A stretch of 64,000 nt of DNA, taken from the NCBI RefSeq assembly GCF_024171995.1, contig NZ_JAMTCT010000015.1:1-64000 (forward strand), given 5' to 3'. The notes under the pieces were generated by a model. That model was not told the origin of the DNA. It saw only the letters and a program-made list of their open reading frames with translations, and searched no databases. The position numbers and the translations under genes were made by a program. Every line of letters begins with the position of its first letter. Position 1 is the first letter of the stretch. Shown here piece by piece: positions 5,376 through 62,984 of the stretch. This DNA comes from Promicromonospora umidemergens. GTDB taxonomy: Bacteria; Actinomycetota; Actinomycetes; Actinomycetales; Cellulomonadaceae.

Positions 5376-5391
5376 CTCTGCTCTCTTCCCT

Positions 5392-15488: not shown

Positions 15489-16180
15489 TGGCTCGTACCC
15501 CGCCGCTCGAGCCGCGGGGTTGGGAAGAACCGGAGGTCGCTTGGCATACGGGCATCGAGCTTCGCAACAACCCTCTCGGACAGCAGAGCCGGAAGGATGA
15601 ATCTGGTCTCGGACAGCAGTTCAGCCTCCTGCAACATCTTGAACACATTCGAGCGCAACTTCAGCAGTGTTGAATCCTTGATCGCGGCCAGCTCCTCATG
15701 CCACAGCGCCTTGGTCCGAACGAAGCTGTCGAACTCCTCGTATCCCAATGTCGAGGCGAGCAGCAGGAACCTCTCTCTGACGACTTCCTCGGCGAACTCT
15801 CCAATGAATTGGTAGCGCCGGCAGGCGGCCACCCACATGAGGTGAGCGCGCTCTGAAGCAGTGGCATCCGCGAGCAGCTCGACCTCGCCGTCCACCAGCG
15901 CCGAAAGCCGCTTCACGGCTTCTCGTGCAAGGCGGACGCTGGTGCGATACGTACGACCTTGAAGGACGTTGCGCTCGATGGTGATGTCGCGTGTCTGCTC
16001 CCAGTCGCGGATGTCGAGGTAGAGGGGGGCGACCACCGTGGCCTCGCGTACGAGGAGCGTGCCGGTCGTGAAGGAGAGCGCATAGCGGCGGGACGCAGTC
16101 GACGCTGCAAGCACTTGACGCCACCTCCCGTCCTCGACCTGCTCGGAACGCGCACCGGTCGGTGCGCGTCGAAGTCCCAT
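15485..16180 (-). CDS. brxA: BREX protein BrxA (DUF1819)
   Basis: 231 residues, first gene of the operon. DUF1819/BrxA proteins are small, helical, DNA-binding proteins with a NusB-like fold. Visible family features are the central LYLDIRDWEQTRDITIERNVLQ segment and the C-terminal LLSETRFILPALLSERVV. The gene starts at ATG 16180 with no Shine-Dalgarno in the five bases between it and a TAGGAT box, which points to a leaderless transcript. It overlaps brxB by 4 nt. Confidence 0.88.
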   Translation of the reverse strand: MGLRRAPTGARSEQVEDGRWRQVLAASTASRRYALSFTTGTLLVREATVVAPLYLDIRDWEQTRDITIERNVLQGRTYRTSVRLAREAVKRLSALVDGEVELLADATASERAHLMWVAACRRYQFIGEFAEEVVRERFLLLASTLGYEEFDSFVRTKALWHEELAAIKDSTLLKLRSNVFKMLQEAELLSETRFILPALLSERVVAKLDARMPSDLRFFPTPRLERRGTSQ

Positions 16181-21865: not shown

Positions 21866-24217
21866 TCAGGATGTCTCAACAGACTTGACGATGGCGTGTG
21901 TCGCATCGATGAGCTGCTGGACCGTCGGCCGTGCGACCTTCTTAGCGCGGTAGAGGAAGTTGGGGTCGTACTTGTTGAAGCCGCGCGGGCTCCCGTCCGC
22001 AGGCAGCGCTGGCCGAACCGCTGCTGCCTCCGAGCCGAAGATCGGGTCGATGGGCGCGAAGTCGAACCACTCCTCGTGCTCGGCTGCGAAAGCGCGGCGG
22101 GCGTCGAGGTTCTCAGGGCCGCTGAGGCTTGACGAAACGATGAGGGCGCGACGGAAGTCACCACCTTGCATTTGCCAGCCGACGGCGCCATCGATCTCAA
22201 CGGAATTCATGGGCACGTTGCGAAACCACTCGATCAGCGGTTGCCCCTTGGAAAAGCCGCCCTTGGCTGATCCTCCGTGGTCCTTGGTCTCGGCTGCGAT
22301 TGTCTCGGCTACACAGTGAGCTCGGAACTTGCGCAAGCGCATGGCGAGTTTCTCGTCACCGACGGCCGTTTCGAGCTCGAGCGGGAGATCGGCTGGTTCG
22401 CCCAGGTCCTGAACGATAACCGCCTCAGCCAGGCCGGCAAGGACACGGATGACCCGCGTGTACCTGTCTACGGTCTCAGCCTCGTATGACGACGGCGTGC
22501 GGGCCATCGCGTGCTCGATCCGGTCGGCCAACTCGTCGTAGCCGAGGAAGGTCCACCCGGGAAGGCTGTCGATCCAGTTGGGTTTGAAGACGCTGAGCAG
22601 GACCGCCGTGCTCGACCCGAGTCCTTGCGCTTCCCAGGGATCAAGGACGTCGTGGCGGTACCGGTCGAGTTGCTCGACGGTGGGAACCGAGAAAACCTTG
22701 TTCTCGATAGCCAATCGTTCCTTGCCGGGGAACGTCATGATCAGGTCGAGGTCGCGGTGCTCACGCTGAACGTCGCGAGTCTCCTGGATCCCTGGCGGCA
22801 GGTCTGAAGCGAAGACCTCCTCAGCTGCCTGGGGAAATGCCTTGAAGAACCACGCAAGCAGATTGCTGTGGAACAGCTCAAGGCTGCCGTACATGATCGC
22901 CGCCAGCGGCTCTGCCCGTAGCCGGCCTGCAAGATCGGACAGTTGTGCCACCAGTCTGACCTGGGCGCCCGACTGCGAACGGAGATTTGCTCCATCGCTG
23001 ATCGGTTCGGCCTCGACTGGCATTGGAGTCGATCGATGTTCCGCCGAATCTGGAACGAAACGTGCCGCACCACCGAGCAGGTCGCTTGTCACTGCTTCAG
23101 CTGGTTGTGCTGACCAGTGGTCCCGGCCGGTCGCGCCGTATCCGCGGACAAGTGCGTCGACGATCGCGTTGCTGGCGTCGGCCAGCTGGCCGGGCAGGTG
23201 GAGGAACAGGGAGAAGTTCTCATTCCCATTTCCCGGGACGGGCGCGCCCCATCCCAGGGCTTCCAGTGCCTTGACCTGTGTGTCCGCCAGAGCAGCGTGG
23301 GCCGGAAGGAACTGGTTGCTCACCGCGTCCAGATGGAGCCATGGCTCGACGATCTGCCCCTGCACGTAGCACTCGACGCCTGGGTGACGGTTCGACTCGA
23401 ACGAGATCTTGAACGACTGCGCGCCGAACTCTTGATGCGTCTGCACGACCTGCTGCACGGCTGCTCTCACCGAATCTAGGCCGTCGTTGACCAGCCCCGT
23501 GCCAGCAACAGGCTCAGGCGATGTGCCCAGTAGCGCTGCTGCGACATCCGCGACACGACGACGTCGCGCGTACTCGACGCCAACGTCGACTACCCCGGCG
23601 GGTCCCCAGGCCCGACCGCCGTCATGCACGAGCGCGAGCGCTTCACCACCACGCTCCAGCACCCAATACTCGTACACCTCCCGCGGCACATCGGCATCGA
23701 AACCACCGAAGTCCGGAAGATGCGCCGCGAAACGGTCGGGGACTGACAAACCTGAGGAGATATCGGAGGAGTCCAGAAACAGACTCCGGCACCGGATCGG
23801 GAGTTCGTCAAACATCGTCATCGTCACCACGTGGGTGACCAGCCGGTAGGTAAGCGACCGCGACACGGACCCGCCTGGCTGCTCGGGCGCATAGCTTGCC
23901 GCCGCGTCGAGCGCGTCGACGAAGGTACGAAGGCGCGGCGCTCGAACAAGATCGAGCCAGGGCGTGTCCGAGAAGGTGCCCGGCCGTGTCGTCGACTCGC
24001 CCAGATGCGCCGCTCCTCCTGGAGTGCGATTGAACGACCAGACCCAATCGAAGACCGAACTATCGCGATCCCCCAGCCAGCGACCGACCCACAGCCGATC
24101 CGACTGCCCTCCACTCGGGCGGACCTCGACGATCTGCAAGTCCGGATGACGTCGTACGAGCTCGCTCGTGACCGCCCATGACGCTGCATGAGCCCACCAA
24201 TCCTGCACGTCGGTCAC
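21866..24217 (-). CDS. PD-(D/E)XK nuclease-superfamily protein with TY-Chap-like domain
   Basis: 783 residues from GTG 24217, chosen because AGGAGGAG lies just upstream; an in-frame ATG at 24265 lacks this. The central part, with ALGWGAPVPGNGNENFSLFL, recalls TY-Chap domains of actinobacterial conflict proteins. The C-terminal half contains LELFHSNLLAWFF, then DLDLIMTF...LAIENKVFS, fitting the PD-(D/E)XK core (D, then E-x-K), and a helix with SVFKPNWIDSLPGW. Proteins like this are seen as stand-alone nucleases in defence islands. The following membrane gene is likely its partner. Confidence 0.6.
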   Translation of the reverse strand: MTDVQDWWAHAASWAVTSELVRRHPDLQIVEVRPSGGQSDRLWVGRWLGDRDSSVFDWVWSFNRTPGGAAHLGESTTRPGTFSDTPWLDLVRAPRLRTFVDALDAAASYAPEQPGGSVSRSLTYRLVTHVVTMTMFDELPIRCRSLFLDSSDISSGLSVPDRFAAHLPDFGGFDADVPREVYEYWVLERGGEALALVHDGGRAWGPAGVVDVGVEYARRRRVADVAAALLGTSPEPVAGTGLVNDGLDSVRAAVQQVVQTHQEFGAQSFKISFESNRHPGVECYVQGQIVEPWLHLDAVSNQFLPAHAALADTQVKALEALGWGAPVPGNGNENFSLFLHLPGQLADASNAIVDALVRGYGATGRDHWSAQPAEAVTSDLLGGAARFVPDSAEHRSTPMPVEAEPISDGANLRSQSGAQVRLVAQLSDLAGRLRAEPLAAIMYGSLELFHSNLLAWFFKAFPQAAEEVFASDLPPGIQETRDVQREHRDLDLIMTFPGKERLAIENKVFSVPTVEQLDRYRHDVLDPWEAQGLGSSTAVLLSVFKPNWIDSLPGWTFLGYDELADRIEHAMARTPSSYEAETVDRYTRVIRVLAGLAEAVIVQDLGEPADLPLELETAVGDEKLAMRLRKFRAHCVAETIAAETKDHGGSAKGGFSKGQPLIEWFRNVPMNSVEIDGAVGWQMQGGDFRRALIVSSSLSGPENLDARRAFAAEHEEWFDFAPIDPIFGSEAAAVRPALPADGSPRGFNKYDPNFLYRAKKVARPTVQQLIDATHAIVKSVETS

Positions 24218-25145: not shown

Positions 25146-25460
25146 ATGGCAACCGCGGAACAGCTGGATCTGGAGGACGCCGACGCGATAGAACACCACG
25201 CCACCCTCGACGCTGACGCCGGGTACGCGCTTCTCGCTGAGAAGACCTGGGCCGCGCTACGCGCCCTCGGAGTCGAACGGGGGCGGATGCTCTTCCTTGG
25301 CGACCACGCCCACACCTTCACCGGCATCCCCGTACCCGACACGGTCTACGGTCACCAGGAGGAGGCCGTCAACCGAGCAGGTGGCGTGTCCTTGGCCCTG
25401 CCGTCTCAGCAGGAAACTTGCCTTCGAGGTCTCGGATTTGCGGCCGAGCGCCAGCGTTAA
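25146..25460 (+). CDS. Hypothetical protein, probably 3'-truncated
   Basis: 104 residues from ATG 25146. The first 80 (MATAEQLDLEDADAIEHHA, then GYALLAEKTWAALRALGVERG, then FLGDHAHTFTGI) look like a real helical protein, but the last 25 overlap the end of the ankyrin gene and look like antisense sequence. The original C-terminus was probably lost when the ankyrin gene was joined here. Confidence 0.4.
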   Translation: MATAEQLDLEDADAIEHHATLDADAGYALLAEKTWAALRALGVERGRMLFLGDHAHTFTGIPVPDTVYGHQEEAVNRAGGVSLALPSQQETCLRGLGFAAERQR

Positions 25461-27054
25461 GTAGGACTCTGACGAGGTCCGGATCATCGACAGACGCGGC
25501 GAAGTACAGCGGTGTCGACCCGAGGGTCGTCTGCCGGTTCACATCGGCACCCGCAGAGATGAGCAACTGGACTCCGTCATGGTCCCGCCGCTCGATCATC
25601 ATGTGTAGCGCCGAGTGCCCGAATCCGCCGCCGCCCAGGAAGATGGCCGCGTTAGGCGCGTCGACGTCGGCACCCGATCGGATCAACTCTCGAGCCACAA
25701 CCCTCCGCTCGTCAACGAGTGCCGTGAGCAGCGGCGTCTCCCAGTGCTGGATCGGGTCGCCGTATTCGATCAATGCGGAACCGTTGATTGGCGCGCCTTG
25801 GCGCAGCAGCAACTGGACCTCCGCCGCGGTCTCGACGTAGTGCAGCCCGTAACTTCCCTCCCGAGCACCGAGCTCACTGACAAGTGAACGGGACACGAAG
25901 GCCTGTTGTTCGACGCGAGCCGCGTCGAGCGACGCGTATTCCACCATGAGACGGGTACGAACGGCCTCAGGGTCGTGCGAGTCCCCCACACCGCTCCAGA
26001 CCGTCGCGCGTCCATACGGCGTGAGGTACACGACGCCCCAGCCGTCGTGCACATTAACTGCCTGACGGACGCGCTCGACTGGAGGGAGCTCGATCCTGCC
26101 ATTGACACGCCGAAGCAATGCGTAGCCTGCGTCGTACATCGGCTTCGGGTCCGCACCGCCCCGGAGCAGCTCAACGATGACTTTCTCGAAGTCGGTGGCG
26201 GACGTTCCCTGGGGTCGCCGGGTGCCGGGAACCGCCAACGTGGCGGCCGCCATGAGCGGGGTTGGACTAGTTCCGTGCTGAGGACGATTGGCGTCGGCAC
26301 CAAGCGAGATCAGCAGCCGGGTCGTCTTCCCGTGCCCCCTCGACGCGGCGTAATAGAGGACCGGATCGCCGTCATTGTCGACCGCGTTGACGTTGGCTCC
26401 CAACTCCCGAAGGGCCATGAGAGCGCCATTCTGACCTGCACCAGCGGCCAGCATCATCGCGGTGACGCCCCCGACGCCCCCGGAATCCACCGTCACGCCG
26501 TACTGCCCGAGCGTGGCGATGCCGCCGCTCCATCCCGCCTCCGCCAATGCGTGCAGGATCGTGAACCCAGGCATGCCCGAAGCCGATGTGCTGCGTGCAT
26601 TCGCGTCAGCACCCCTGGACAGGAGCAACTCGAAGAGGCCTGCGTTCTGGCTTCCGGACACGTAACGCAGTACGCAGTCACCGTCGTCATCGACTGCGTG
26701 GATGTCGGCGCCACGATCGAGCAGGCCGCGAACCTTGACCTCGTCGCCGATAGCAGCCAGGTGCATCAGATCGGTCTTGCCCGCGGCCCGTTGGGGAACC
26801 AGCTGGCGCTGCCGCACGGAGTTGGCCGCTACGTCGTTGATGGGCGCCTCGGCGGCTGAACGTTGGTCGGCATCTTCCGCGCCTCCTTGCCTCTGACTGG
26901 AGAGTTTGGTGGACGCTTCACCAACTGTGCGGCGGCGACTGGAGTTGGCTTGCTGGCGCTCAGCCTCCTTCCGCTTGGCACGGAAGCCCGCGATTAGCGC
27001 CGCCGCGACCAACAGCGTGAGGATGACGACAATCACGGTGGCACCCGATTCCAT
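25369..27054 (-). CDS. Membrane-anchored ankyrin-repeat protein
   Basis: 561 residues. An N-terminal membrane helix (VIVVILTLLVAAALIAGF, residues 7-24) is followed by a charged linker. Ankyrin repeats start near residue 90 (TDLMHLAAIGDEVKVRGLL, then GADIHAVDDDGD; later ones include GANVNAVDNDGDPVLYYAA and GADVNRQTTLGSTPLYFAA). A non-repeat middle (about 310-410) separates two repeat blocks. Ankyrin proteins mediate protein binding; anchoring suggests a cell-surface or membrane scaffold, possibly in conflict or toxin contexts. No operon partner is evident; the gene upstream (27225) is about 170 nt away on the same strand. Confidence 0.7.
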   Translation of the reverse strand: MESGATVIVVILTLLVAAALIAGFRAKRKEAERQQANSSRRRTVGEASTKLSSQRQGGAEDADQRSAAEAPINDVAANSVRQRQLVPQRAAGKTDLMHLAAIGDEVKVRGLLDRGADIHAVDDDGDCVLRYVSGSQNAGLFELLLSRGADANARSTSASGMPGFTILHALAEAGWSGGIATLGQYGVTVDSGGVGGVTAMMLAAGAGQNGALMALRELGANVNAVDNDGDPVLYYAASRGHGKTTRLLISLGADANRPQHGTSPTPLMAAATLAVPGTRRPQGTSATDFEKVIVELLRGGADPKPMYDAGYALLRRVNGRIELPPVERVRQAVNVHDGWGVVYLTPYGRATVWSGVGDSHDPEAVRTRLMVEYASLDAARVEQQAFVSRSLVSELGAREGSYGLHYVETAAEVQLLLRQGAPINGSALIEYGDPIQHWETPLLTALVDERRVVARELIRSGADVDAPNAAIFLGGGGFGHSALHMMIERRDHDGVQLLISAGADVNRQTTLGSTPLYFAASVDDPDLVRVLLNAGARPQIRDLEGKFPAETAGPRTRHLLG

Positions 27055-38933: not shown

Positions 38934-39800
38934 GGAGCCCATCCCGTTACGGACACAAACGATTAATGACCTGGCCGCTACTCCACGAAGATGTACTCGG
39001 AACCGCCGTCCTCGAAACGATGGGCCGCCGTCAAGGTGCCGTGAGCAACGCGGACAATGTGCCGATGCGGCTGTCCGAATCGAACTCGACATGCAGGAAG
39101 TGGTCGTTCGCCTCGTACCTGACAAAATTGGGACCGACGCGTTCTGGCACTCCAAAGAAATCTGCAACCTCACCACGAGTCGCTGTGGGAGACAATCCGT
39201 CGATCAAGGCAGAAGGCCTCGGGTACAGGCCGTAACCGTGATCTTCTTCTTCGGGCTGTGTTCGCACGATGACCGCCGACAGGATGTCGTCCTTGAAGAG
39301 GATGTCGGTTCCAGCCGCTACGAAGGTGTAGTAGGTCGACCGACCGTTACCCAAGTCAAACTCTTCGATCGTCATGTCGGGACCGACCAGGACGAACGCC
39401 TTGAGGATCCGGTCGTCGCCGCGCCGCAGGCCCAGCACGTCCAGCATCACGGCCATCTCACCGATGACGGTCTCCACTAGATCCCTCGCTTCTTGTTGAG
39501 CTCGCGCAGTTCGTCGAACGCCTTGGCCACTGCCTCAGGCGAATATCCCTCGTTGATCATGTTCTGACTCTGTGTAGCGTAATCCCGCTCGGCGGCCACA
39601 CCGAGATCAGTCGCATCTGCTTCGATCCGCGTCTGACTGTTCCTGCCTTTGTAGGTGTCGCCCTTGGCGTGGACTTCCTTTGGCAATTCGATCGCGTTAC
39701 CTTGCTCGTGAATTTCTCGAATTTCGTGCGGCTTCAGGTCACGACCAAGCTCGATCTCCTTGGCCCTTTGCAATGCGGCCGACGACGGAATGTGATCGTG
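38934..39800. repeat. Duplicated toxin-tip/immunity segment, copy 1
   Basis: Pairs with 50935-51880. From the shared string CCGTTACGGACAC (about 38944 and 50943) through the immunity gene and toxin tip. Direct orientation, about 12 kb apart. Confidence 0.65.
39031..39477 (-). CDS. Immunity protein of the polymorphic toxin (copy 1)
   Basis: 148 residues from GTG 39477, whose G is shared with the toxin's TAG. MAVMLDVLGLRRGDDRILKA, then FGVPERVGPNFVRYEANDHF and a C-terminal ...TLSALLTAP. It is closely similar to the product of the 51032-51478 gene (matching LRYEAND, FGVPERT and TATR). Position directly after the toxin tip and 1-nt overlap are the classic layout of a cognate immunity gene. Family name unknown to me. 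Confidence 0.7.
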   Translation of the reverse strand: METVIGEMAVMLDVLGLRRGDDRILKAFVLVGPDMTIEEFDLGNGRSTYYTFVAAGTDILFKDDILSAVIVRTQPEEEDHGYGLYPRPSALIDGLSPTATRGEVADFFGVPERVGPNFVRYEANDHFLHVEFDSDSRIGTLSALLTAP

Positions 39801-41246
39801 CTCCATGCCGTCGCCGACCTTCGCACGTTTCTTGAGATCTTTGTACGTTCCGACATCGAGGGCTTTAACATGGTCGCTGTTGTGAACGAGCACAACGTGT
39901 GCACCAACCCGCACATAGTAGTTGTGGTGGGTCTCGACGTGGAAGTTGTAGACCATCTCCGCGTCAGCTTCGGTCCGCTGCTCGGTGTCGGTGGCCTCGA
40001 CCGGGACCGTCGTACCCTCCGGGGTGACCAGAAGGTCGCCGACCCTCAGGAACGCGGCGTCCAGCCAGCCGCGGCCCTGGACCATGAACGGATGCTCCGC
40101 GGTGGTGGAGACCCGCTCACCATCGATCGTCAGGTGGAACAGCTCGGTTGAGGTGCGGACGAACGTCTCGACGACCAGCTGCAGCTCATCCCGGCCGGTC
40201 TCGAGGTCACGGGCCCAGACCTTGTCCCCGACCCGGATCTCCTCGATCGCCCTGGGCCCGTCTGGAGTATGGATCAGGGTCCCGGCCACGAAGCACTTCC
40301 CGAACCCGAACTTGCACCACCCCTTGCTCATCGCCTGCCGGAACCCGCCCGACTTCGCGATGGTCTTCGACAACCCCATCGCGGCCTTCGCAGCACCACC
40401 CAGACCGATCAACGACAACGCCGCGCCGGCGATCGCGATCCCGGCCTCCGCCCAGGAGCGTTCACCCGTGGCCGCGAGGGTGATGTTCGCGACCGCGCTG
40501 ACGATCGCCGCGACTGCCGCGATGACGATCAGCACTCCCGCCAGGGCGGTGCCGACCACAGGGATGAACGCGACGATGATCGCGAGGATCCCCGCGATCG
40601 TGGAGATCATGTCGGCGATGTCCGCGATCGCGGCGACGAGCTTGGAACCCCAGTTGTCCCACCAGCCGTCGTTCAGATCATCATTGCTGGTGATCTCCTC
40701 GATCTGATCGATCGCGGAGTTCGCGGCAGTGTCCCGGTCGGATACCGCGGTCTCGATCGCGCTCTTCGCGGACGAGATCACGCCGGCGGCCTGGTCGGCG
40801 TCCCCGCCGGCCTGCTCCGCCTTCTGCTCGTACTCCTGCTTCTCGGTCTCGTCCTTCGCCGAGTCGGCCAGGTCCTGCCATCGGTCCTTCGACCCCCGCG
40901 CTGAGTCCGCAGCATCCTGCGCATCCCTGGCCCGGTCCAACGCCGCAAGCGTCTCCGACTGCACGCGTTCGAGCGACGACGCGTATCCGGCCAGGGCGTC
41001 ACCGGCGGCGACGTACCGGGAATGGGCCTTACGGATCTCGCTGATGGTGTCTTCCTTGGCATCCATCAACGAATCAACGGCATTCGAGACCGTGCCGTCC
41101 ACATCCAGCCGGCTCATCGAGGACGCCGCGTTGTCGATCGACCGGGCAACCTCTTGGTACTCCTGCCCGCCCGAAAGCACCAGCACTGGATCACCTGGCG
41201 TCGGATCCGCATCCAGCCCTACCGGCGACCAATCAGACGGCCTCAT
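39477..41246 (-). CDS. Polymorphic toxin: T7SS-signal, TM, HINT, HNH-like tip
   Basis: 589 residues from ATG 41246 (GGAGGGGG upstream). N-terminal about 1-110 fits the T7SS-secreted-protein signal domain (RPSDWSPVGLDADPTPGDP, then VQSETLAALDRARDA), followed by coiled coil. Membrane helices (IADMISTIAGILAIIVAFIP, then VLIVIAAVAAIVSAV) lie about 210-265. A HINT pretoxin domain follows: CFVAGTLIHTPDG, then VGDKVWARD, and ending HHNYYVRVGAHVVLVHN. The last 130 residues are the toxin tip, with MEHDHIPS, HEIREIHEQG and LPKEVHAKGDTYKG, an HNH-like nuclease pattern. Probably exported by a type VII-like route. The tip recurs as an orphan at 51448-51924. Confidence 0.75.
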   Translation of the reverse strand: MRPSDWSPVGLDADPTPGDPVLVLSGGQEYQEVARSIDNAASSMSRLDVDGTVSNAVDSLMDAKEDTISEIRKAHSRYVAAGDALAGYASSLERVQSETLAALDRARDAQDAADSARGSKDRWQDLADSAKDETEKQEYEQKAEQAGGDADQAAGVISSAKSAIETAVSDRDTAANSAIDQIEEITSNDDLNDGWWDNWGSKLVAAIADIADMISTIAGILAIIVAFIPVVGTALAGVLIVIAAVAAIVSAVANITLAATGERSWAEAGIAIAGAALSLIGLGGAAKAAMGLSKTIAKSGGFRQAMSKGWCKFGFGKCFVAGTLIHTPDGPRAIEEIRVGDKVWARDLETGRDELQLVVETFVRTSTELFHLTIDGERVSTTAEHPFMVQGRGWLDAAFLRVGDLLVTPEGTTVPVEATDTEQRTEADAEMVYNFHVETHHNYYVRVGAHVVLVHNSDHVKALDVGTYKDLKKRAKVGDGMEHDHIPSSAALQRAKEIELGRDLKPHEIREIHEQGNAIELPKEVHAKGDTYKGRNSQTRIEADATDLGVAAERDYATQSQNMINEGYSPEAVAKAFDELRELNKKRGI

Positions 41247-49469: not shown

Positions 49470-49670
49470 GTGGTGCAGACGCTTATCGCGGCCAGCCAGA
49501 CCGGCACGCCGACGCCGCCGAGCACTTTCACGTGTCCGTCAAGACGCTGCGCCGCCGAATCGCAGACGGCACCATCGCGGGCTACCGAGTAGGCCGGCTC
49601 ATCCGGGTCGACCTCGATGAGCTGACGCAGAGCCTTGTTGGCGCGATCCCCTCAGCGCGTTCCGTGTGAA
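49470..49670 (+). pseudogene. Excisionase (MerR-like HTH) remnant, copy 1
   Basis: HFHVSVKTLRRRIADGTIAG, then YRVGRLIRVDLDELTQ, is an excisionase-type winged helix. The N-terminal part (VQTLIAASQ from GTG 49473) lies in the neighbouring frame, so the gene is frameshifted near 49510. Copy 2, nearly identical over about 105 bp, is at 51885-52059. Confidence 0.6.
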
Positions 49671-49985
49671 CCCCGGACCGATCGCGGCAGCGCGGACCGT
49701 GCGACCGCAGCGGCTGGACCTCCTCGCGAGGGAGGTCCAGACACTCGAGCATCAAGCGGCCCTGCCCCTTTTGGACTTTGCACGCTCCACCTCCAGCCGG
49801 ATCTCCTCCCCCGCCGTCACACTCATCCGGGCAGCGAGCTCGATGTCCCGAGCCATCGTCGCCTTCTGGTAGCGCAGCACCACCGTCACGTCGGAGTGCC
49901 CACAACGACGCATGACCTCGGCCGAGGTCGCCACCTCCTGCGCAATCCGGGTCAGCCCCGTGTGCCTCAGGCCATGGAACCTATA
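49515..49985. repeat. Direct repeat A1 (excisionase-integrase remnant)
   Basis: Nearly identical to 51908-52360 in the same orientation, offset about 2.39 kb. The pair brackets the IS630 piece, the methyltransferase fragment and the orphan toxin/immunity cassette. Confidence 0.65.
49752..49985 (-). pseudogene. Tyrosine integrase C-terminal fragment, copy 1
   Basis: GYRFHGLRHTGLTRIAQE, then RRCGHSDVTVVLRYQKATMA: the H-x-x-R, H/W-position and catalytic Tyr of tyrosine recombinases. Convergent with the excisionase remnant. The N-terminal part is missing; an IS630 piece follows. Confidence 0.65.
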
Positions 49986-50019
49986 GCCGCTCCCAGCCTG
50001 TGCTGCCGATGATGCCCGG

Positions 50020-50480
50020 GACCCGCAGCATGTGACCCACGACTACGTCCGGGCCGGCACCACGGCCCTGCTCGCCGCCCTGGAGATCGCCTCCGGCAAG
50101 GATGATCGGCTCGCTGCACCGCCTTCACCGGGCCGAGGACCCTGGGCAAGCAGACTCGCGCCGACCTGGACATCCACCTCGTGCCGGACAACTACGCCAC
50201 GCACAAGACGCCGGCGGTCCGGACCTGGATCGTGGCCCATCCGCGGTTCCACCTGCGCTTCACCCCGACCGGGTCCTCCTGGCCCAACCTCGTCGAGAGA
50301 TGGTTCGCCGAGCTGACGAACACGCAGATCCGCCGCGGCGTCCACAAGTCTGTCCAGACCCTGGAGAAGGACATCCGCGACTGGATCGCGACCTGGAACA
50401 CCGGCCCACGGCCCTACGCCTGGGCCAAGACCGCCGACGAGATCCTCGAACGACTCGCCGGATATGAACAAGACTCCTGA
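50020..50480 (+). pseudogene. IS630-family transposase C-terminal fragment
   Basis: THDYVRAGTTALLAALEIAS, then after a shift and deletion DIHLVPDNYATHKTPAVRTW, then GSSWPNLVERWFAELTNTQI and TLEKDIRDWIATWN. This is the DDE_3 C-terminus; the catalytic E is in ERWF. Frameshifted and without ends. Confidence 0.65.
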
Positions 50481-50482
50481 CT

Positions 50483-50942
50483 CACTAGGTCATGGTGTGT
50501 TCGACCGGATCATGGTTACCGTCTCTCCCTGGCCCCTGCCCCGGCCTGGATCGAGCAGCTCGCGCCCGACGGGGTCCTGGGTCGTCCCGCTCCAGTCGCA
50601 CCAGGGCTGCAACGCAGCATCGCGTTCCGCCATCTCAGAGTCGACCGCGCCAGGCGGCTTCGTCACCCCCTGCAGGGCGCGGTGTTGTTCGACCCGCCGT
50701 CGACCCTGCTGACGGGCCCATCTGGCAAGCCGGTCACGTTCAAGTTCACCAACGAGATCCCCAAGCCGTTCGAGGTATCGGACCCTGTCCTGGCCTCCGA
50801 CCCGGTCGAGGCATGGTCAGGGGTGATCTACAAGAACCGCACCATCTGGCTCGACCTACTCACCTACCTCCTGGTCCAGCCGGGCGCCTGCGCGATGGAA
50901 GCCAAGGACCCCGCAGACCGCGGCTCGGACATGTCGGGCCGC
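50483..50942 (+). pseudogene. Partial second copy of the FxLD-type methyltransferase
   Basis: GVFDRIMVTVSPW, then (next frame) LFDPPSTLLTGPSGKPVTF, then GVIYKNRTIWLDLLTYLLVQ, nearly identical to residues 160-320 of the gene at 34474. Frameshifted near 50560-50680. Abuts the IS630 remnant on one side and the immunity-gene duplication on the other. Confidence 0.75.
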
Positions 50943-51880
50943 CCCGTTACGGACACGAGCGGTTTATGACCCCGCCGTCACTCTACGAAGATGGGCTCGG
51001 AGTCACCGTCCTCGAAACGATGGGCCGGCTGTCAAGGTGCCGTGAGCAACGCGGAGACCATGGTGATCCGGTCCTGCGCGTCGAACTCCAGGTGCAGGTA
51101 CTGGTCGTTCGCCTCGTATCGCAGGAAAGTGGGACCGGTCCGCTCCGGAACGCCGAAGTGCTCCTCAACCTCGGAGCGGGTGGCCGTCAGCGGCAGGCCC
51201 TCGACGAGGTCGGCCAGCCGTGGGTACGGGTCGTACCCAGACTCCTCGGTGTCAGGCTGCACCCGCACCATGAAGGACGTGAGCACGTCGTCCGTGAAGT
51301 GCACGTCGGTGCCGGTAGATCGGAAGACCAGGTAGGTCGAGGTCTCGTCGCCCCAGTCGAGCTCCGTGGTCTCCATGCCGGAGCCCAGCAAGACGAGCGC
51401 GTCGAGGATCCGGGCGTCTCCCTTGCGTAGCCCGAGCACGCTCAGCATCACGGCGATGTCGCCCGTGACCGTTGCCATCCGATCCCTCGTCCCTGATTGG
51501 CTGTTCGCAGTTTATCGATCGCCGCGGCCACGTCCTGGGGCGAGAATCCGGCAGCGATCAGGTTCTTGGTCTGGGTGGCGTAGTCCCGCGCGGCGGCCTT
51601 GCCCAGATCGGCGGCATCTCCCGCGATCTTCGCGGGAGTGTTCTTACCCTTGTAAGTGTCTCCCGCACGGTGCACATCCTTGGGGACCTCGATCGTGTAG
51701 CCCTCGTTGTGGATCTTCAGCTCCTCGTCCCTGCTCAGCGAACGGCCGAGCCTGGTCTCCTCGGCCTTCCTCAGGGCTGCTGACGACGGGATGTGGTCGT
51801 GCTCGAGACCGTCGCGGACCTTTTCGATCTTCTTCAGGTCCTTGAGCTGTCCGTCGTCGAGCGCCCAACGCCCGCCCATC
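50935..51880. repeat. Duplicated toxin-tip/immunity segment, copy 2
   Basis: Partner of 38934-39800, same orientation. Confidence 0.65.
51032..51478 (-). CDS. Orphan immunity protein (copy 2)
   Basis: 148 residues from ATG 51478. MATVTGDIAVMLSVLGLRKG, then FGVPERTGPTFLRYEANDQY and a C-terminus ending LLTAP. Clear paralogue of the 39031-39477 product, sharing almost all strongly conserved positions. It follows an orphan toxin tip; the toxin frame now reads 30 nt into this gene because its stop was lost. Confidence 0.7.
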   Translation of the reverse strand: MATVTGDIAVMLSVLGLRKGDARILDALVLLGSGMETTELDWGDETSTYLVFRSTGTDVHFTDDVLTSFMVRVQPDTEESGYDPYPRLADLVEGLPLTATRSEVEEHFGVPERTGPTFLRYEANDQYLHLEFDAQDRITMVSALLTAP

Positions 51881-51924
51881 CCACTCGCTTGATCCCGTTG
51901 GCCGGCGCCGCCGCCCACTTTCAC
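51448..51924 (-). CDS. Orphan toxin-tip cassette (HNH-like)
   Basis: Frame of 158 residues; the homologous part begins ALDDGQLKDLKKIEK and runs through LEHDHIPSSAALRKAEETRL, then VPKDVHRAGDTYKGKN, to DKLRTANQGRGIG. This is the C-terminal tip of the toxin at 39477-41246 without its delivery and HINT domains. It starts precisely after the position of the HINT-domain end in the full toxin. There is no start codon that makes sense by itself; it is a silent cassette that could be recombined onto a full toxin. Confidence 0.65.
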   Translation of the reverse strand: MKVGGGAGQRDQASGMGGRWALDDGQLKDLKKIEKVRDGLEHDHIPSSAALRKAEETRLGRSLSRDEELKIHNEGYTIEVPKDVHRAGDTYKGKNTPAKIAGDAADLGKAAARDYATQTKNLIAAGFSPQDVAAAIDKLRTANQGRGIGWQRSRATSP

Positions 51925-52059
51925 GTGTCCGTCAAGACGCTGCGCCGCCGAATCGCAGACGGCACCATCGCGGGCTACCGAGTAGGCCGGCTCATTCGGG
52001 TCGACCTCGATGAACTGACACAGAATGTGGTCACGATCCCGTCAGCACGTTCCGTGTGA
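51885..52059 (+). pseudogene. Excisionase remnant, copy 2
   Basis: LIPLAGAAAHFHVSVKTLRR, then ADGTIAGYRVGRLIRVDLDE: a near-perfect copy of the remnant at 49470-49670. This copy keeps the N-terminal helix in frame. No clear ATG; the TTG at 51890 may start it. Confidence 0.6.
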
Positions 52060-52360
52060 ATCCGGACCGATCCCGGCAGCGCACACCGCGCGACCACAGC
52101 AGCTGGACCTCGCGAGGAAGGCCCAGCCGCTCGACCAGCAAGCAGCCCTGTCCCTTTCGGACTCTGCACGGTCCTTCTCCAGCCGGATCTCCTCCCCCGC
52201 CGTCACACTCATCCGCGCGGCGAGCTCGATGTCTCGGGCCATCGTCGCCTTCTGGTACCGCAGCACCACCGTCACGTCGGAATGCCCACCACGCCGCATG
52301 AGCTCGGCCAGGGTCGCTCCCCCCTGCGCAATCCGGGTCAGCCCTCTGGCGCTGCCGGGC
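51908..52360. repeat. Direct repeat A2 (excisionase-integrase remnant)
   Basis: Second copy of the repeat at 49515-49985, same orientation. Confidence 0.65.
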
Positions 52361-52610
52361 ATGCCTGTTTGATCCCACCGAGGCCCTTGGTCGCCACGTA
52401 GATGCGCCCCTCGCCCGGGTGAACGTCCCCGACCGTCATGCCCAGCGGCTCCGAAGCCCGAGCCCCGCTGGACAGGAACATGCTGAACAGGGCCCTGTCC
52501 CTGTTGCATTCGAGCCTGGCGAACAGGTCGTCCAGGACGTTGTTCGATCCCCGCAAGTCTTCATGGACGCAGACACGACGGAGTTTCGAGTTCACCCTTC
52601 TGAGCCCATG
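52042..52610 (-). pseudogene. Tyrosine integrase remnant, copy 2
   Basis: One frame gives NNVLDDLFARLECNRDRALF, then SSGARASEPLGMTVGDVHPG (mid part). The other frame gives GLTRIAQGGATLAELMRRGGH, then VTVVLRYQKATMARDIELA. The two are joined by a deletion removing the region with the conserved box around HGLRH. C-terminal part about 90% identical to 49752-49985. Dead. Confidence 0.6.
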
Positions 52611-52642
52611 ACGTGCCTCGCGCAAGCCGCGACGATGCTGCC

Positions 52643-52945
52643 ATGGACTCCATCCAAGCCTCAGTTGCCGCCGCCACACCGCGCGACCCAGACGGGCCAG
52701 AAACCTTCGACGACGCGCTGAAGTTGTTCGGACTGGACGACGCATGGCTGCGCGACTGGATCGTCGCGACTCTGGATTCGCTGTATGACCGCACCGGCTG
52801 GGAGAGCGCCGTGTTCTGGATTCCCCCGTACAAGGGCTACGTCGCGGTCGGGCATCCTCGAGTCCGCACCGCGTACGTCCGTCGCGCCAGCATCCAGTAC
52901 CCAGATCGAGATGATTGGCCGATCATCCGATACCCGAGTCGGTGA
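52643..52945 (+). CDS. Hypothetical protein
   Basis: 100 residues from ATG 52643 (an in-frame ATG at 52613 is possible). MDSIQASVAAATPRDPDGPE, then DDALKLFGLDDAWLRDWIVA and WIPPYKGYVAVGHPRVRTAY. Unrecognised; next to the integrase remnant. Confidence 0.45.
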   Translation: MDSIQASVAAATPRDPDGPETFDDALKLFGLDDAWLRDWIVATLDSLYDRTGWESAVFWIPPYKGYVAVGHPRVRTAYVRRASIQYPDRDDWPIIRYPSR

Positions 52946-57044: not shown

Positions 57045-57159
57045 CAGCGACCCCCTCGCGTAAGGACGGGCATCCAGACTACGCACGCCTCCCGCCCACG
57101 AACACGATAGATCGTGCGCCAACGAAGACATCAACCACCGGCGTGATCACCGTCAGTCC

Positions 57160-58893
57160 TCACCGACCGGTGATGCTGGTCAGCTCCCTGCGGGCCCGCT
57201 CGGCGAACCGCTCGTTGCGCACCGCCTCACCCAACGGCACCCCGGCCTCCCGTTCGGCATCGATGGCCCGCTGGATCACGGGCAGCAGCTCGTGGACGAC
57301 CAGCTTTTCCGCGGCCTCCGCGTCCCAGACCACGTCAAGAATGCGGGTGCACGCCTTCGTGACCGCCTTGTCGTGGGTCGGCACGGCCCCCGGTCCGAGC
57401 AGCTTCTGTCGGATCAGCGCCATCAGGTGGTACTGGGTGGGCCGGTAGCCACGGTTGACGCGCTGGTTGCGGATCAGCCACTCCAGCCGATACCAGGTCG
57501 CCGCGGCAGTGTAGTAGAGGATCGGCTGCTGGTCAGCGGCGTACAACTCCTCGCCACGCGCCTTCATCAGGTCCTGGTAGCGGCCCACACGAGACGGTTC
57601 GTCCATGAACATCGCCAGGTACGCGCGGCTGAGCTGAGGACGGCTGATGACCCGGGTCTTCTCCACGTCCTTGCGTTCGCTGTACTGCTTCGCGCGACGT
57701 TCGTAGAAGAGCCGGTGCGGCTTGTCCCAGCCGAGGGTGAAGAAGTCTTCCAGCTGCTTGTGGAAGTCCTGCCGCGCGGCCAGGTCCTCAGCACTGACCG
57801 GAGTCTGCTGGTTGGTCGCGGCCACGATGCCCTGAATCACGTCCTCGTCCTTCGAGTGCACGATGTGGACGCTGACGTACACCTGATCGGTGAGCTGATC
57901 GCGTTCGTGGAACAGCACGTGGCAGGTCTGGCATCCGTTGACGATCTGGAAGTCGTCCAGCACGAAGTTGTCGCCGACCCGGTTCATCTTCCGGGTCACG
58001 ATGGTGATGCCGTTGTTCATCACGGCGAACCTCTGCCGCTTGACCGGGTCCCGCAGGGTGTCTCGTATGCCGCTGTTGACGGCGTTGTATCCCTGGAAGG
58101 CCCGGACGTTGCTCTCGAACAGGTTCTCCCGCAGCTTTCCCGAGTCGTCCTCCAGCACGGTGCGCACCAGCTCCGAAGCGCCGACCAGTCCCACGAACGA
58201 CTGCTCGACACCCGGAGCCGTCGGCATCGCGAACTGCTTCGGCACCGGCACGGTGACCTCGACGGTGCTGATCGCCTGCTGGTACAGCGCGCGCAGCTCC
58301 GGCCGGTTCACACAGCGCACCTCGACCGTCTCGAACCGGTTGAGCTTGCCCAGATGCCTCTCGGCCGATCGCGCCTTGCGGTGGACCATCTCCGCTATCT
58401 GATCACCGGTGGTCACATAGCGGACGTGCAGCTCCGGCAGCCGGCCGGCCAGCCGTGCGGGGTCCTGGTACACGGCGTCCAGGCATTCGCGCAGGCCCTT
58501 CACGTCGTCCGACACCTCGTACGGGATGGCTTCCGCCCCGCACAGGTGGCCAAGATTCTCCGCGAGGTCCGAGATCACCTTGGTCTCGAACTTGCTGCTG
58601 GTCTTGGCCTGGATGATCACCACCTGCACCTGCGGCCGCCTGCGTTCCTGCATCGCCACCTGGACGTCCGTCGGATCCCGGTACATCTGCCCGTCGATCA
58701 GCACCGCGTAGGCGTCGATGCCGAGGTCGTTGCCCCCGCCCGTGCGGTATGTGTCGGGGTTGAACGGCTCGTTGTAGTACGAGTTCAGCACGCAGTAGGC
58801 GGCGAACGCCTCGAACGCCTCTGCCTCAGGCAGCTCGGTCAGGTCCTGGTCCTGCTGGAAAGCCTCGAGCAGACTCTGGATCACTCTCTCCAC
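57160..58893 (-). CDS. AIPR-family protein with PD-(D/E)XK core
   Basis: 577 residues from GTG 58893 (AGAAGGGG upstream). GNDLGIDAYAVLIDG (D60) and VVIIQAKTSS (Q95-A-K97) form an N-terminal PD-(D/E)XK nuclease site. The middle has AVNSGIRDTLRD, NNGITIVTRK and FQIVNGCQTCHVL, the AIPR signature. AIPR proteins are abortive-infection effectors. It is 33 nt after the HerA-like gene. Confidence 0.8.
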   Translation of the reverse strand: MERVIQSLLEAFQQDQDLTELPEAEAFEAFAAYCVLNSYYNEPFNPDTYRTGGGNDLGIDAYAVLIDGQMYRDPTDVQVAMQERRRPQVQVVIIQAKTSSKFETKVISDLAENLGHLCGAEAIPYEVSDDVKGLRECLDAVYQDPARLAGRLPELHVRYVTTGDQIAEMVHRKARSAERHLGKLNRFETVEVRCVNRPELRALYQQAISTVEVTVPVPKQFAMPTAPGVEQSFVGLVGASELVRTVLEDDSGKLRENLFESNVRAFQGYNAVNSGIRDTLRDPVKRQRFAVMNNGITIVTRKMNRVGDNFVLDDFQIVNGCQTCHVLFHERDQLTDQVYVSVHIVHSKDEDVIQGIVAATNQQTPVSAEDLAARQDFHKQLEDFFTLGWDKPHRLFYERRAKQYSERKDVEKTRVISRPQLSRAYLAMFMDEPSRVGRYQDLMKARGEELYAADQQPILYYTAAATWYRLEWLIRNQRVNRGYRPTQYHLMALIRQKLLGPGAVPTHDKAVTKACTRILDVVWDAEAAEKLVVHELLPVIQRAIDAEREAGVPLGEAVRNERFAERARRELTSITGR

Positions 58894-58926
58894 GGTGGGT
58901 CCCCTTCTTCCTCTCGTGCGCGGACC

Positions 58927-61900
58927 TCACACCTGCCGGGCGCGGTCGATGACCTCCTCGACGGTCAGCGGGCTCGACGGGTGGTAGCTCAGGCAGATGG
59001 GGGTGCGAATCTTCTGAAATGCCAGCCCCTCGGCAACGGCATAGAACTCACCGGTGCCCAGCCGGGAGATGTCTGGTACCGCACTGGACTTCGCGGCTGC
59101 CATCTCCCTGGCAGCGGTGATCTGCGACGGACTGTTGAGGAACCCGTACAGCTGCGTGGCGGCGTTGCCGGAGATCCGGTTGTGGATACCGCGTGGCGCC
59201 TGCGTGGCGAACACCAGGCCGAGTCCGTACTTGCGGGCCTGCGAGGCCAGCGCGAGGGTGCTGTGCGTGCTCGCGGTCAGCGAACCGGACGGAGCGATGG
59301 TCTGCGCCTCGTCCATGACCAGTAGTCCACCGAGCGGCCGGTCCCCGGCGGGGTTCCGCTTGATCCAGGCGAACAGAGCCATCTGGAGCTGGTTGACGAA
59401 GCTCTGCCGTTGCTCCTCGGTAGGCAGGCCGATCAGGCTGATCACCGAGATCCGGGCACGTTTCCCCGCCTCGGGGGTGAGCAGCACGCCGGGGTCCACC
59501 GGTTCACCGACCCCGCCGAACAACGGATCGTTGATCGTGGCTGCACGCAAGGTCTGCGCCATGTCCGCGGCCATCTCGTGCGCTTTGGCCAGTCGCGTCA
59601 CGCCATCGGGCAGGTCACCGAGCAGATCCAGGAAGTGGCTGAGCCCTTCGCCGCCCTTGCGTGCGAAGTACTGCAGCGCCTGGTTGAGAACGGCCCGTGA
59701 ACGCTCGGCCTTCGCAGTCGGACCGTCGGCGCGGGCACGCGGTGCGAGCGCGGCGACCGCCGTGTCAACGGCCTGGCGGAACTCGTCCGGGTCGTCGGCA
59801 ACCGCGGCGAAATCGGGCAGCGGGCGAAACGCCAGCGGCCGACCGGATTCCCGGCGGGGCGTCCAGACCACGACATCGGTGTTGCGAAGGTAGTCGTCGG
59901 CGCGGGCCGCGTCATGGGGTCCCCAAGCATCCGGTGGCTGCGGCCACGGGTCGCCAAGCCGCGCCAGGTCATTGTTGGGGTCGAGCACGATCGCGGACAC
60001 GCCACGCAGAGCGCACTCCTCGACCAGCCGGCGGATCAGCACTGTCTTGCCCGATCCGGACCCGGCGAAGATCGCCGTGTGCTTCCGCAGCGACTCCAGA
60101 CTGATCGTCACCGGCGCACCGGTGTCCATCCGGTCACCCACGTGCAGCGTCAACGGATCCGCTGCCGCCTGGCCCGGAGCCACCACCACCGGGTCGGTGG
60201 TGTCAGGGGCAACGAACGGCAAGGTTGCGGCGGACGGTTGCGGCATGGGGACCGGCCCTGGTTCAGGACGCGGCGGTTCCGGGTCGTCCCTCGGATCGCC
60301 GAACACCGCGCGCAGGAGCGCGGTGCGTCCGGCCGGGCGGCGGCTGAGCAACCATGCCCTGAACCGGGCCGGTGGCTGGGTGCCAGCGAGTCGCTCCAAG
60401 GCCGCGAACGTGCGAAGTCCGGTCTCCAGCGTCTCCCTCGACAGCTCGATCACGACCCCGCCGGCCGCCTCGAACTCCTGGACCTTCTGCCGGGTCTTGT
60501 TGCCGTTCGACCACTCACCGGTGCGCAACAGGAAGACTTTACGTTTCTGCGCCGATGGGTCCAGCCCCGTGGCGATCAGGACCCGGTCGATCCGATTGAT
60601 GACCGCCCGCCCGTCTCGCCACCCGATCGCCCGGAACGACCAGTAGATCTTGTCTTCGGTGTCCTCGTCGATGATCCGGTGCACTTCAGCGTGCAGGGCA
60701 GGATTTCCGGCGGCCATCGTCTCCAGAGGCAGCACATAACGGAGGCGTTCTTCACCCTGCTCGACGATCCACCACTTCAACGCTGAACGGATAAGGCGCG
60801 GTACGTGCTGATCTTCCTGCTTCGGGTCGAGTGACTTTGCGACGTCCGCGATCACGCTCGTATCGTTCACCAAGGCGGTCAGCTGCTCGTCGATCTCGGT
60901 GAACGCACCCTGATCTGACGGCAATGGCGCAGGCCCCGGTCGCGGCGTAGGCGTGTCCTTGCCACTCGGCTCGGCAATGCTGGTCAGCTCGACGACGTGG
61001 TTCGCGCCCAGGCACGCCCGGAGGTGGGTATCGATCTGGCGGATGAGGCCGCGAGCAGTGAACAGGCCAGAGTCGGCGAACGCTTCCGGCCGTACCGGCC
61101 AGGTTGGATAGGGCGGGGTAAATCCGACCTCGCCGAATTTGAGCGCGAACCGCCTTTCGATGAGCGTCCGCCCGATCACTGCTGACGGGACGGTGTCCAG
61201 CTGCTCGGCGTGGCGGAACCGTTGCTCGACGGAGCCCAGCGAATGTTGGTGGATTCGCTTCCAGACCGGCTCGGTGCAGGCAACCAGAACCAGTGTCCGA
61301 CGAGTGACCTCGCGCAGCTCCATGAGCCCGCTGCCGACGTCGTCGAACATCTGCTTCCTGGGCAGACCCATCGATTCAGGTTCAGCGTCAGGTCCCTCGG
61401 ACGCGGCGCCGTCGGCCGCTCGATCCGATTGCTGGATAAGCGTGTCGATCTGGTCCAGGGCGATCACGCTCGGCCCGGTGAGCGCGATCAGCTTGAAGAG
61501 CTCACCGACCGTCTCGTGCGGCTTCCTAGAGGCGGCGCGAATACCCCATTCGGCGCGTTCGCCTACCACCAGCTCGTCTTCCGCCGACAGTAGATAGGCG
61601 CTGCCGACCTCCCTGATCGCCAGCGACCTGCTGGCCAGCAGCGTCAGGGCTCGCAGAGTGTGTCCACATTCGAAGGCGAGCTGCTGGTCGACGTCGTCCA
61701 GCGCCTCGACGATGCCGTCGAGTCCCGACCGGGTCGGTTCGTCGTGCCCCATGAGCTGCCGGTGCAAGGGTTCGGGCAGATCGAGTCTTTGAGACAGTCC
61801 CCGTCGCAGGGCTTCACCCTGCTTGACTCCGTCACGGCCGGGTCGCAGCAGGCCGCCGAGCACGTCGTGCACCACCTTCTGCCAGAAGGCCCGCTCGTGG

Positions 61901-62184
61901 CGCAGGTCAAGGGCGAAGAAATAGCCGCCCGCCGCCATGACCCGCGACCGTACGGCCGCGACAAGGTGAGTCTTTCCCGAACCGGGCTGTCCGGTGACGA
62001 CCACGCCGAGCGGGCTCTCCGCGGAGCTGGCCTTGGCGTCGCGGAAACCGTCCATGACCGTACCGAACGCCGAACCGTTGAGGCCTGCGACGTGGGTCTC
62101 CGGGTCCTCCCACACGCCGTCCCTGCTGATCGCCCAGTTGACCCTGGTCAGTTCCGCCAGTGCGCCGCGCTCGATCTCCCTCAT
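58927..62184 (-). CDS. Dual P-loop ATPase, AAA + HerA-like
   Basis: 1085 residues. First P-loop GQPGSGKTH at residues 65-73 with a Walker B SVIALDQIDTL near 250 (AAA/ORC-like N-terminal half). Second P-loop GSGSGKT near 700 with IVLDPNNDLARLGDPW after it and LLVMDEAQT near 955, as in HerA/DUF87 translocases. Two motors in one chain suggest a DNA-translocating sensor that loads or activates the AIPR nuclease. ATG overlaps the wHTH gene's stop (ATGA). Confidence 0.8.
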   Translation of the reverse strand: MREIERGALAELTRVNWAISRDGVWEDPETHVAGLNGSAFGTVMDGFRDAKASSAESPLGVVVTGQPGSGKTHLVAAVRSRVMAAGGYFFALDLRHERAFWQKVVHDVLGGLLRPGRDGVKQGEALRRGLSQRLDLPEPLHRQLMGHDEPTRSGLDGIVEALDDVDQQLAFECGHTLRALTLLASRSLAIREVGSAYLLSAEDELVVGERAEWGIRAASRKPHETVGELFKLIALTGPSVIALDQIDTLIQQSDRAADGAASEGPDAEPESMGLPRKQMFDDVGSGLMELREVTRRTLVLVACTEPVWKRIHQHSLGSVEQRFRHAEQLDTVPSAVIGRTLIERRFALKFGEVGFTPPYPTWPVRPEAFADSGLFTARGLIRQIDTHLRACLGANHVVELTSIAEPSGKDTPTPRPGPAPLPSDQGAFTEIDEQLTALVNDTSVIADVAKSLDPKQEDQHVPRLIRSALKWWIVEQGEERLRYVLPLETMAAGNPALHAEVHRIIDEDTEDKIYWSFRAIGWRDGRAVINRIDRVLIATGLDPSAQKRKVFLLRTGEWSNGNKTRQKVQEFEAAGGVVIELSRETLETGLRTFAALERLAGTQPPARFRAWLLSRRPAGRTALLRAVFGDPRDDPEPPRPEPGPVPMPQPSAATLPFVAPDTTDPVVVAPGQAAADPLTLHVGDRMDTGAPVTISLESLRKHTAIFAGSGSGKTVLIRRLVEECALRGVSAIVLDPNNDLARLGDPWPQPPDAWGPHDAARADDYLRNTDVVVWTPRRESGRPLAFRPLPDFAAVADDPDEFRQAVDTAVAALAPRARADGPTAKAERSRAVLNQALQYFARKGGEGLSHFLDLLGDLPDGVTRLAKAHEMAADMAQTLRAATINDPLFGGVGEPVDPGVLLTPEAGKRARISVISLIGLPTEEQRQSFVNQLQMALFAWIKRNPAGDRPLGGLLVMDEAQTIAPSGSLTASTHSTLALASQARKYGLGLVFATQAPRGIHNRISGNAATQLYGFLNSPSQITAAREMAAAKSSAVPDISRLGTGEFYAVAEGLAFQKIRTPICLSYHPSSPLTVEEVIDRARQV

Positions 62185-62819
62185 GGGCGCCCGATAGACA
62201 TGAGGTGCACGTCCGTGCCTCCCATGCGCAGCGCGGCTGCCCTGTCTGCCTCGGTCAGCGTCTTCTGGTCGAACTCAGGATTGAGCCGCACTTCCCGTTC
62301 CAGGACCAGACGCAGCAAGGTGGCGTCCAGGTCGGCACGCGGTATGTCGGCGACGGTGTGCCGCAGCCGCGCAAGGCCGACCCAGGAACCTGGCGTGGCA
62401 GCCAGTGCGGCGTACGCGGCACGGATCCGACCTATGATGTCGACGGCGGGCACGGTCGGCTCGTCATCCAGGGCGAAGATGTCCGCGACACGCAGATCGG
62501 ATCGCGCCATGAAGGCTGCGAACCGGCGGGTCAGCGCGTATTGCAGCCGCGTGGGTTTCGACGCACGCTCCGGAGCGGGGCTGCCCAGCTCTTCCCCACA
62601 GCGCCGCCAACCCTCGTCCGTGAGCTCGTGCATCCACGCCCGGTACCGGCCCGTCTGCCACGCCCTGATGTAGCCCAGGTCGACCAAGCGCTCCCGCGCC
62701 CTCTTCTCGATCGTGATACCCAGCTCATCTGCTAGCCCAGCGTTGGACACCTCCCGGGTCAGCGTCATCAGCGCGAGCAGCGCCGACCGTTCCGGCAGGT
62801 TCAGCTGGGTGTCCGACAT
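62181..62819 (-). CDS. Winged-helix-like protein, first gene of the AIPR operon
   Basis: 212 residues from ATG 62819 (frame open to 62957). MSDTQLNLPERSALLALMTL, then SNAGLADELGITIEKRARE and LVDLGYIRAW: a winged helix. The C-terminal half (VGLARLRHTVADIPRADLD, then LRLVLEREVRLNPEFDQ) is a second small domain. It could be a sensor, regulator or DNA-binding subunit. Confidence 0.65.
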   Translation of the reverse strand: MSDTQLNLPERSALLALMTLTREVSNAGLADELGITIEKRARERLVDLGYIRAWQTGRYRAWMHELTDEGWRRCGEELGSPAPERASKPTRLQYALTRRFAAFMARSDLRVADIFALDDEPTVPAVDIIGRIRAAYAALAATPGSWVGLARLRHTVADIPRADLDATLLRLVLEREVRLNPEFDQKTLTEADRAAALRMGGTDVHLMSIGRP

Positions 62820-62984
62820 GGCGCAAACGTACCTGGATTCCGACTTGACGGGCAGTGTCGTCGCAGGCCACGGCGCAAAACTCACCCGCCTGGTGAGTCT
62901 GGGGCCGGGTGTGGAGCTCCGCTTCACCAGATTGCCCTCTTCGAAGTGCCCCGACACTCCAGTGAGTGACCAGCTCAGCCCTAG

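Follow-up and report, generated by a model that had tools for sequence, protein, structure and literature searches.

A winged-helix/AAA-HerA gene pair with alternative nuclease partners: a candidate anti-invader module in Promicromonospora umidemergens

The 64,000-nt window of Promicromonospora umidemergens DNA analyzed here (contig NZ_JAMTCT010000015.1, positions 1 to 64,000) carries a compact module of three genes, which encode a likely winged helix-turn-helix (wHTH) protein (P0003), a fused AAA-HerA protein (P0002) and an AIPR protein (P0001). A survey of related loci revealed that the conserved winged-helix/AAA-HerA pair has at least two alternative nuclease partners, of which AIPR is one. 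Our preferred reading, which we consider probable though far from assured, is that of a mobile anti-invader module in which the winged-helix protein and an Orc/TnsC-AAA+/HerA platform would operate with an exchangeable AIPR nuclease in a pump-and-cut fashion. A role in defense best accommodates the patchy spread of the module, its cassette boundaries, the nuclease exchange, the BREX operon in the same window and the match of P0001 to the AbiU model of PADLOC, and it is from these features that we infer it.

A conserved pair and its exchangeable nuclease

The first-pass annotation of this DNA had described three tightly coupled genes, and the open reading frames (ORFs) bear this out: all lie on the minus strand, with a 4-bp overlap between P0003 and P0002 followed by a 33-base gap between P0002 and P0001. 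The features are as follows.

62181..62819, minus strand: P0003, likely winged-helix (wHTH) protein, 212 amino acids, first gene of the module (ORF, homologues by tblastn and gene clustering, N-terminal profile)
58927..62184, minus strand: P0002, AAA-HerA protein, 1085 amino acids (ORF, Pfam, model, motif conservation)
57160..58893, minus strand: P0001, AIPR protein, 577 amino acids, GTG start (ORF, Pfam, PADLOC, residue conservation, model)
57136..62897, no strand: cassette boundaries, i.e., the stretch that aligns with DNA of the nearest relative (DNA comparison with P. kroppenstedtii, L020)

Homologues of P0002 were charted at 89 loci, comprising 80 genome contigs (the best 80 of 500 confirmed in a HerA-motif search), three entries of a plasmid collection and six further genomes; L001-L004, L008-L012 and L013 did not enter the neighborhood counts, since each is a short flank of the window, L014-L019 or L020 or coincides with one of them. 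A P0003-like gene adjoins the AAA-HerA gene, upstream and on the same strand, at 89/89 loci (88 by tblastn and L006 by gene clustering). The third gene varies. Within the sampled stretches, tblastn placed AIPR at 15 loci, DUF559 at 41, both at none and neither at 33; the hypergeometric probability of zero double carriers is 2.9e-5, a figure that is not a true P value because the loci are related. The two families also occupy different positions: the AIPR gene stands downstream of the HerA gene (15/15) and the DUF559 gene upstream of the winged-helix gene (41/41), always on the same strand. The DUF559 partners have a conserved D-ExD site. The three-gene arrangement singled out in the first-pass annotation is thus recurrent in order and strand at 15 of the 89 loci, but it is the winged-helix/AAA-HerA pair, not the three-gene operon, that forms the conserved unit.

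An accidental order, with an AIPR gene that landed behind an unrelated HerA operon, would be in keeping with the finding of AIPR genes that lack a HerA neighbor. We nonetheless regard it as very improbable, given the constant order and strand, a HerA-AIPR gap of 2-40 bases in 14 of the 15 loci (L066 holds only a fragment, and the contig of L026 ends inside the AIPR gene), the match of the three genes as one block to their nearest relatives and the rarity of AIPR itself, which occurs in only 16 of the 296 genomes sampled from the phylum when the present one is counted. The 15 AIPR loci do not count as independent cases, because they have one origin in the P0002 tree. In this 90-row tree, the 16 AIPR rows, window included, all fall into one 19-row clade with a Shimodaira-Hasegawa-like approximate likelihood ratio test (SH-aLRT) value of 100, and they lie on one side of a branch that has 52 DUF559 and WD40-type rows on the other. 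The simplest reading would be that DUF559 is the older partner and that AIPR replaced it once, an order that stays conditional because the root is a midpoint root and the tree search was a quick one.

Eleven of the 33 loci lacking AIPR and DUF559 have instead a divergent protein of about 1290-1370 amino acids, assigned to WD40 by Pfam in the one tested. This WD40-type neighbor, of about 1340 amino acids, lies beside the pair in 11 of the 12 rows of a single clade (L015, L029, L035, L038, L044, L047, L053, L056, L058, L060 and L070). At L015, the WD40-repeat protein adjoins a small Trypco1 gene, and the N terminus of the WD40-type protein looks trypsin-like by eye.

The other 22 of the 89 loci have no AIPR, DUF559 or WD40-type neighbor, and 14 of them belong to the mycobacterial clade; these loci weigh against any reading based on a nuclease, including the one that we prefer. 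The mycobacterial loci with a pair but no recognized nuclease include L017, L042, L067, L076, L081, L087 and L095. Several mycobacterial loci and species share flanking genes, one of them oxidoreductase-like by eye, perhaps because the pair inserts at a fixed site or has a different role there. The proteins encoded upstream of the pair at L032 (731 amino acids) and L094 (743 amino acids) include no nuclease by Pfam, the former having no match and the latter weak helix-turn-helix (HTH) and TPR matches.

Predicted domains and catalytic sites

P0001 is an AIPR protein by Pfam (PF10592; 5.1e-46, 158.2 bits against a cut-off of 25), and its PADLOC match to AbiU (2.8e-113) extends over residues 3-502. 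It comprises a predicted PD-(D/E)XK nuclease region (about 1-210, with E28, D60 and Q95-x-K97), a ParB-like region (about 224-366) and a helical C terminus. The D60...Q95-x-K97 nuclease site suggested in the first-pass annotation withstood a check of conservation, D60, Q95 and K97 being invariant in 14/14 partner AIPRs (L026 and L066 excluded from the residue counts, for the contig end and the fragment mentioned above) and in 11/11 of a set including eight divergent plasmid AIPRs. In the part of PMC3506569 consulted, the N terminus of AIPR/AbiU1 is given as a HEPN RNase domain. We set this assignment aside, short of formal exclusion, because the modeled N terminus of P0001 adopts an alpha/beta fold with D-QxK, for which restriction nucleases are the best, though modest, matches. 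A Foldseek search with the AIPR model returned no match at E 0.001 or better, and the P0001 sequence had none in PDB at E 1. Sequence and model point to a predicted PD-(D/E)XK nuclease.

P0002 combines Pfam matches to AAA_22 (6.2e-9), AAA_16 (1.5e-8) and DUF87/HerA (1.4e-11). An AAA+ region (about 1-407), which resembles Orc/TnsC proteins and is of the Orc/CDC6-family type, is followed by a helical and alpha/beta middle (about 425-630), a low-confidence linker (635-673) and a HerA translocase region (about 675-1085). The HerA/FtsK domain has Walker motifs, with K713 as the Walker A lysine, and the Q sensor, and its motor motifs are fully conserved in 90/90 proteins of the P0002 family. In the AAA part, K71 belongs to Walker A, and the N-terminal Walker B motif reads DQID. 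Since Gln (Q245 in P0002) stands at the position usually held by the catalytic Glu in the same 90/90 proteins, the Orc-like AAA half may bind ATP as a switch instead of acting as a second motor. The label "dual ATPase" given to this protein in the first pass is therefore secure for the HerA half only. The predicted model places an alpha/beta domain at about 495-580 of the middle region; profile searches found no PDB match for this region, and the fold-search list was filled by the HerA and AAA parts.

The identity of P0003 as a winged-helix protein is likely but not firm, because profile matches of its residues 1-80 to the DNA-binding proteins RosR, AspA, ZitR and MarR, although ranking first, reach only E 1e-3 to 5e-3. 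Ribosomal eS10 and others rank lower, and Pfam has no match for P0003. The earlier winged-helix call thus keeps the top-ranking profiles on its side and lacks the backing of Pfam. With the whole P0003 profile, calmodulin-type chains were the sole kind among 60 of 205 PDB rows (E 4e-4 to 2e-3), which we took as a chance or composition effect.

These domain assignments bear on the most serious rival explanation, i.e., abortive infection by an AbiU-like AIPR toxin, held inactive by the AAA-HerA/wHTH pair and set free upon infection, with the HerA ring serving as a sensor or scaffold instead of a pump. The AbiU match of P0001, the occurrence of AIPR apart from the platform, the filing of AbiU1/AIPR among abortive-infection proteins (PMC3506569, in part) and the precedent of DUF4297-HerA (PMC11291478, in part) all speak for it. 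Exchange with DUF559, another nuclease family, and the invariably conserved HerA motor motifs favor instead cutting coupled to translocation. We therefore consider silenced-toxin release unlikely, while noting that it is partly compatible with the pump-and-cut reading, as cutting itself could be suicidal.

Mobility, genomic context and proposed mode of action

Comparison with P. kroppenstedtii (L020) delimits the module: positions 57136-62897 of the window match at 85.5% over 5778 aligned positions, and the rest of the window has no match to the sampled 23 kb of that genome at E 1e-10. Positions 57164-62867 likewise match Amycolatopsis xylanica, a member of another family, at 80%. Similarity ends at the outer edges of the module; therefore, the three genes move together as a mobile cassette. 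The module is patchily distributed: counting the present genome each time, it occurs in 3 of 59 relatives and in 6 of 396 genomes from the phylum as a whole. Homologues were also located on one Methylobacterium plasmid and one Tsukamurella plasmid, and no relatives of P0002 were found in the phage records and viral contigs searched. The window further contains a six-gene BREX operon on the minus strand (3234-16114; BrxA, BrxB, BrxC, PglX, PglZ and BrxL by PADLOC).

The plasmid-borne homologues invite an alternative in which the module serves a mobile element or chromosome maintenance (plasmid or conjugation interference, segregation, repair) and is not directed at phages. The loci with no recognized nuclease or WD40 neighbor, several mycobacterial ones with common flanks among them, fit this role, as does the fold-search match of the HerA part of P0002 to the coupling protein TrwB and to VirB4. 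A housekeeping gene would not, however, be expected to occur sporadically, exchange nucleases and have cassette boundaries, and no conjugation gene was identified among the 22 window genes scanned. On balance, such a role appears improbable.

Several other features of the window were recorded. A possible, very basic peptide of 47 amino acids with repeated GLWG/GVWG motifs lies just 3' of the AIPR gene (57044-56901, minus strand; by eye). A 589-amino-acid protein (39480-41246, minus strand) with a putative type VII secretion system (T7SS) signal and a pretoxin HINT domain resembles a secreted polymorphic toxin. Proteins at 21869-24217 and 25372-27054, both on the minus strand, match the PADLOC candidate families PDC-S26 (3.7e-9) and PDC-M72A (5e-28). 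At about 49600-52750, inspection by eye suggests fragments of an IS630-type transposase and of a tyrosine recombinase; the one recombinase-like ORF compared with Pfam (52341-52745) has no match there.

Returning to the anti-invader reading, a load-pump-cut sequence of events can be proposed by analogy with DUF4297-HerA and with the scheme put forward by Rakesh, Aravind and Krishnan (2024; PMC10853773). The Orc-like AAA domain, with Gln at the catalytic-Glu position, would hold ATP and hydrolyze it slowly or not at all. This presumed ATP switch, together with the winged-helix protein, would load the complex onto DNA that is foreign or being replicated. The HerA domains would then assemble as a hexameric ring and pump DNA, and the AIPR nuclease would dock on the ring and cut the pumped DNA. 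As to the outcome, cutting might either stop at restriction of the invader or be lethal to the cell.

A more ambitious reading, which we offer only tentatively, is that of a widespread immune platform still without a name. Here, the winged-helix/Orc-HerA pair would swap nucleases (DUF559, replaced once by AIPR), the Orc half would be a hydrolysis-poor ATP switch controlling a HerA pump, and AIPR/AbiU1 proteins would be DNA nucleases with a ParB-like domain, not HEPN RNases. AIPR (AbiU1) is a defense protein first studied in Lactococcus; if the pump-and-cut reading is right, it would move from predicted RNase to DNA nuclease. The module would then also provide a compact, testable case of a predicted class of DNA-capture defense, and natural nuclease exchange would show that platform and blade are separable.

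Relation to known defense systems

DUF4297-HerA is described as a HerA hexamer and a nuclease that assemble into an active complex cutting double-stranded DNA and acting by abortive infection (PMC11291478, in part). In contrast to SIR2-HerA and DUF4297-HerA as presented there, HerA is here fused behind an Orc-like AAA, has a likely wHTH partner and is accompanied by AIPR or DUF559 as the effector. Neither SIR2 nor DUF4297 appears among the Pfam matches of P0001 and P0003, or among 25 of the 31 families matched by P0002, and membership in these systems was rejected. P0001 is itself an AbiU1/AIPR protein; however, eight plasmid AIPR regions (4-5 kb flanks) show no annotated HerA gene beside AIPR, which at L107 follows a DUF499 gene, and the predicted PD-(D/E)XK nuclease departs from the HEPN RNase of PMC3506569.

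DndFGH and BREX-related capture systems have in common with the module a HerA/FtsK protein and further ATPase, wHTH and nuclease parts (PMC10853773 and PMC12839542, in part). DndFGH was discarded upon a search for DndH, which has no match in the genome of the window at E 1e-20; PglZ and BrxC are not in the module, and the BREX operon of the window is about 41 kb away. The PADLOC matches of P0002 are weaker and HerA-type, the best being mad8 of the MADS system (8.8e-22). We set MADS aside because the mad8 model proved generic in a control: at E 1e-15, it has matches in 293 of 296 phylum genomes and in all 14 control genomes. None of mad1-mad7 occurs in the PADLOC matches of the three module proteins, nor among those listed for ten further window proteins. 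MZA was likewise dismissed, MzaE scoring 59.3 bits against an NCBIfam cut-off of 1050.

The first-pass annotation could match the single-chain AAA-HerA layout next to AIPR to no named system. Titles and passages of the open-access literature searched contain no named AIPR-AAA-HerA system either; PMC9122126, the only paper retrieved for AIPR, HerA and defense together, mentions AIPR and HerA in separate places. For the exact combination, no named match thus came to light in this literature, but its kind had already been predicted by PMC10853773. Its main text describes HerA/FtsK capture systems whose parts, an Orc/CDC6 AAA+ ATPase, HerA/FtsK, a wHTH and a nuclease, may share a single chain or be divided among several; these systems reside in mobile neighborhoods and are predicted to act against invaders, with the Orc/Cdc6 ATPase localizing the machinery and HerA pumping invader DNA to the nuclease. 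Two active restriction-type nuclease families are described, plus an inactive REase that is inserted after the AAA core and before a C-terminal wHTH, and the HerA domains of the class belong to clades 2, 4 or 5 of the published tree. The exact combination could not be matched to this work, since AIPR and DUF559 have zero occurrences in its main text (the scope of the comparison, apart from figures and supplements), and its inactive nuclease domain has no identified counterpart in P0002, where the alpha/beta domain at about 495-580 gave no PDB profile match. The module has an Orc/CDC6-type AAA+, HerA/FtsK and mobility in common with these systems, and it carries besides a weakly matched candidate wHTH and a predicted nuclease with a D-QxK (AIPR) or D-ExD (DUF559) site. 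As a candidate member of the HerA/FtsK capture class, it looks like an unnamed variant of that class.
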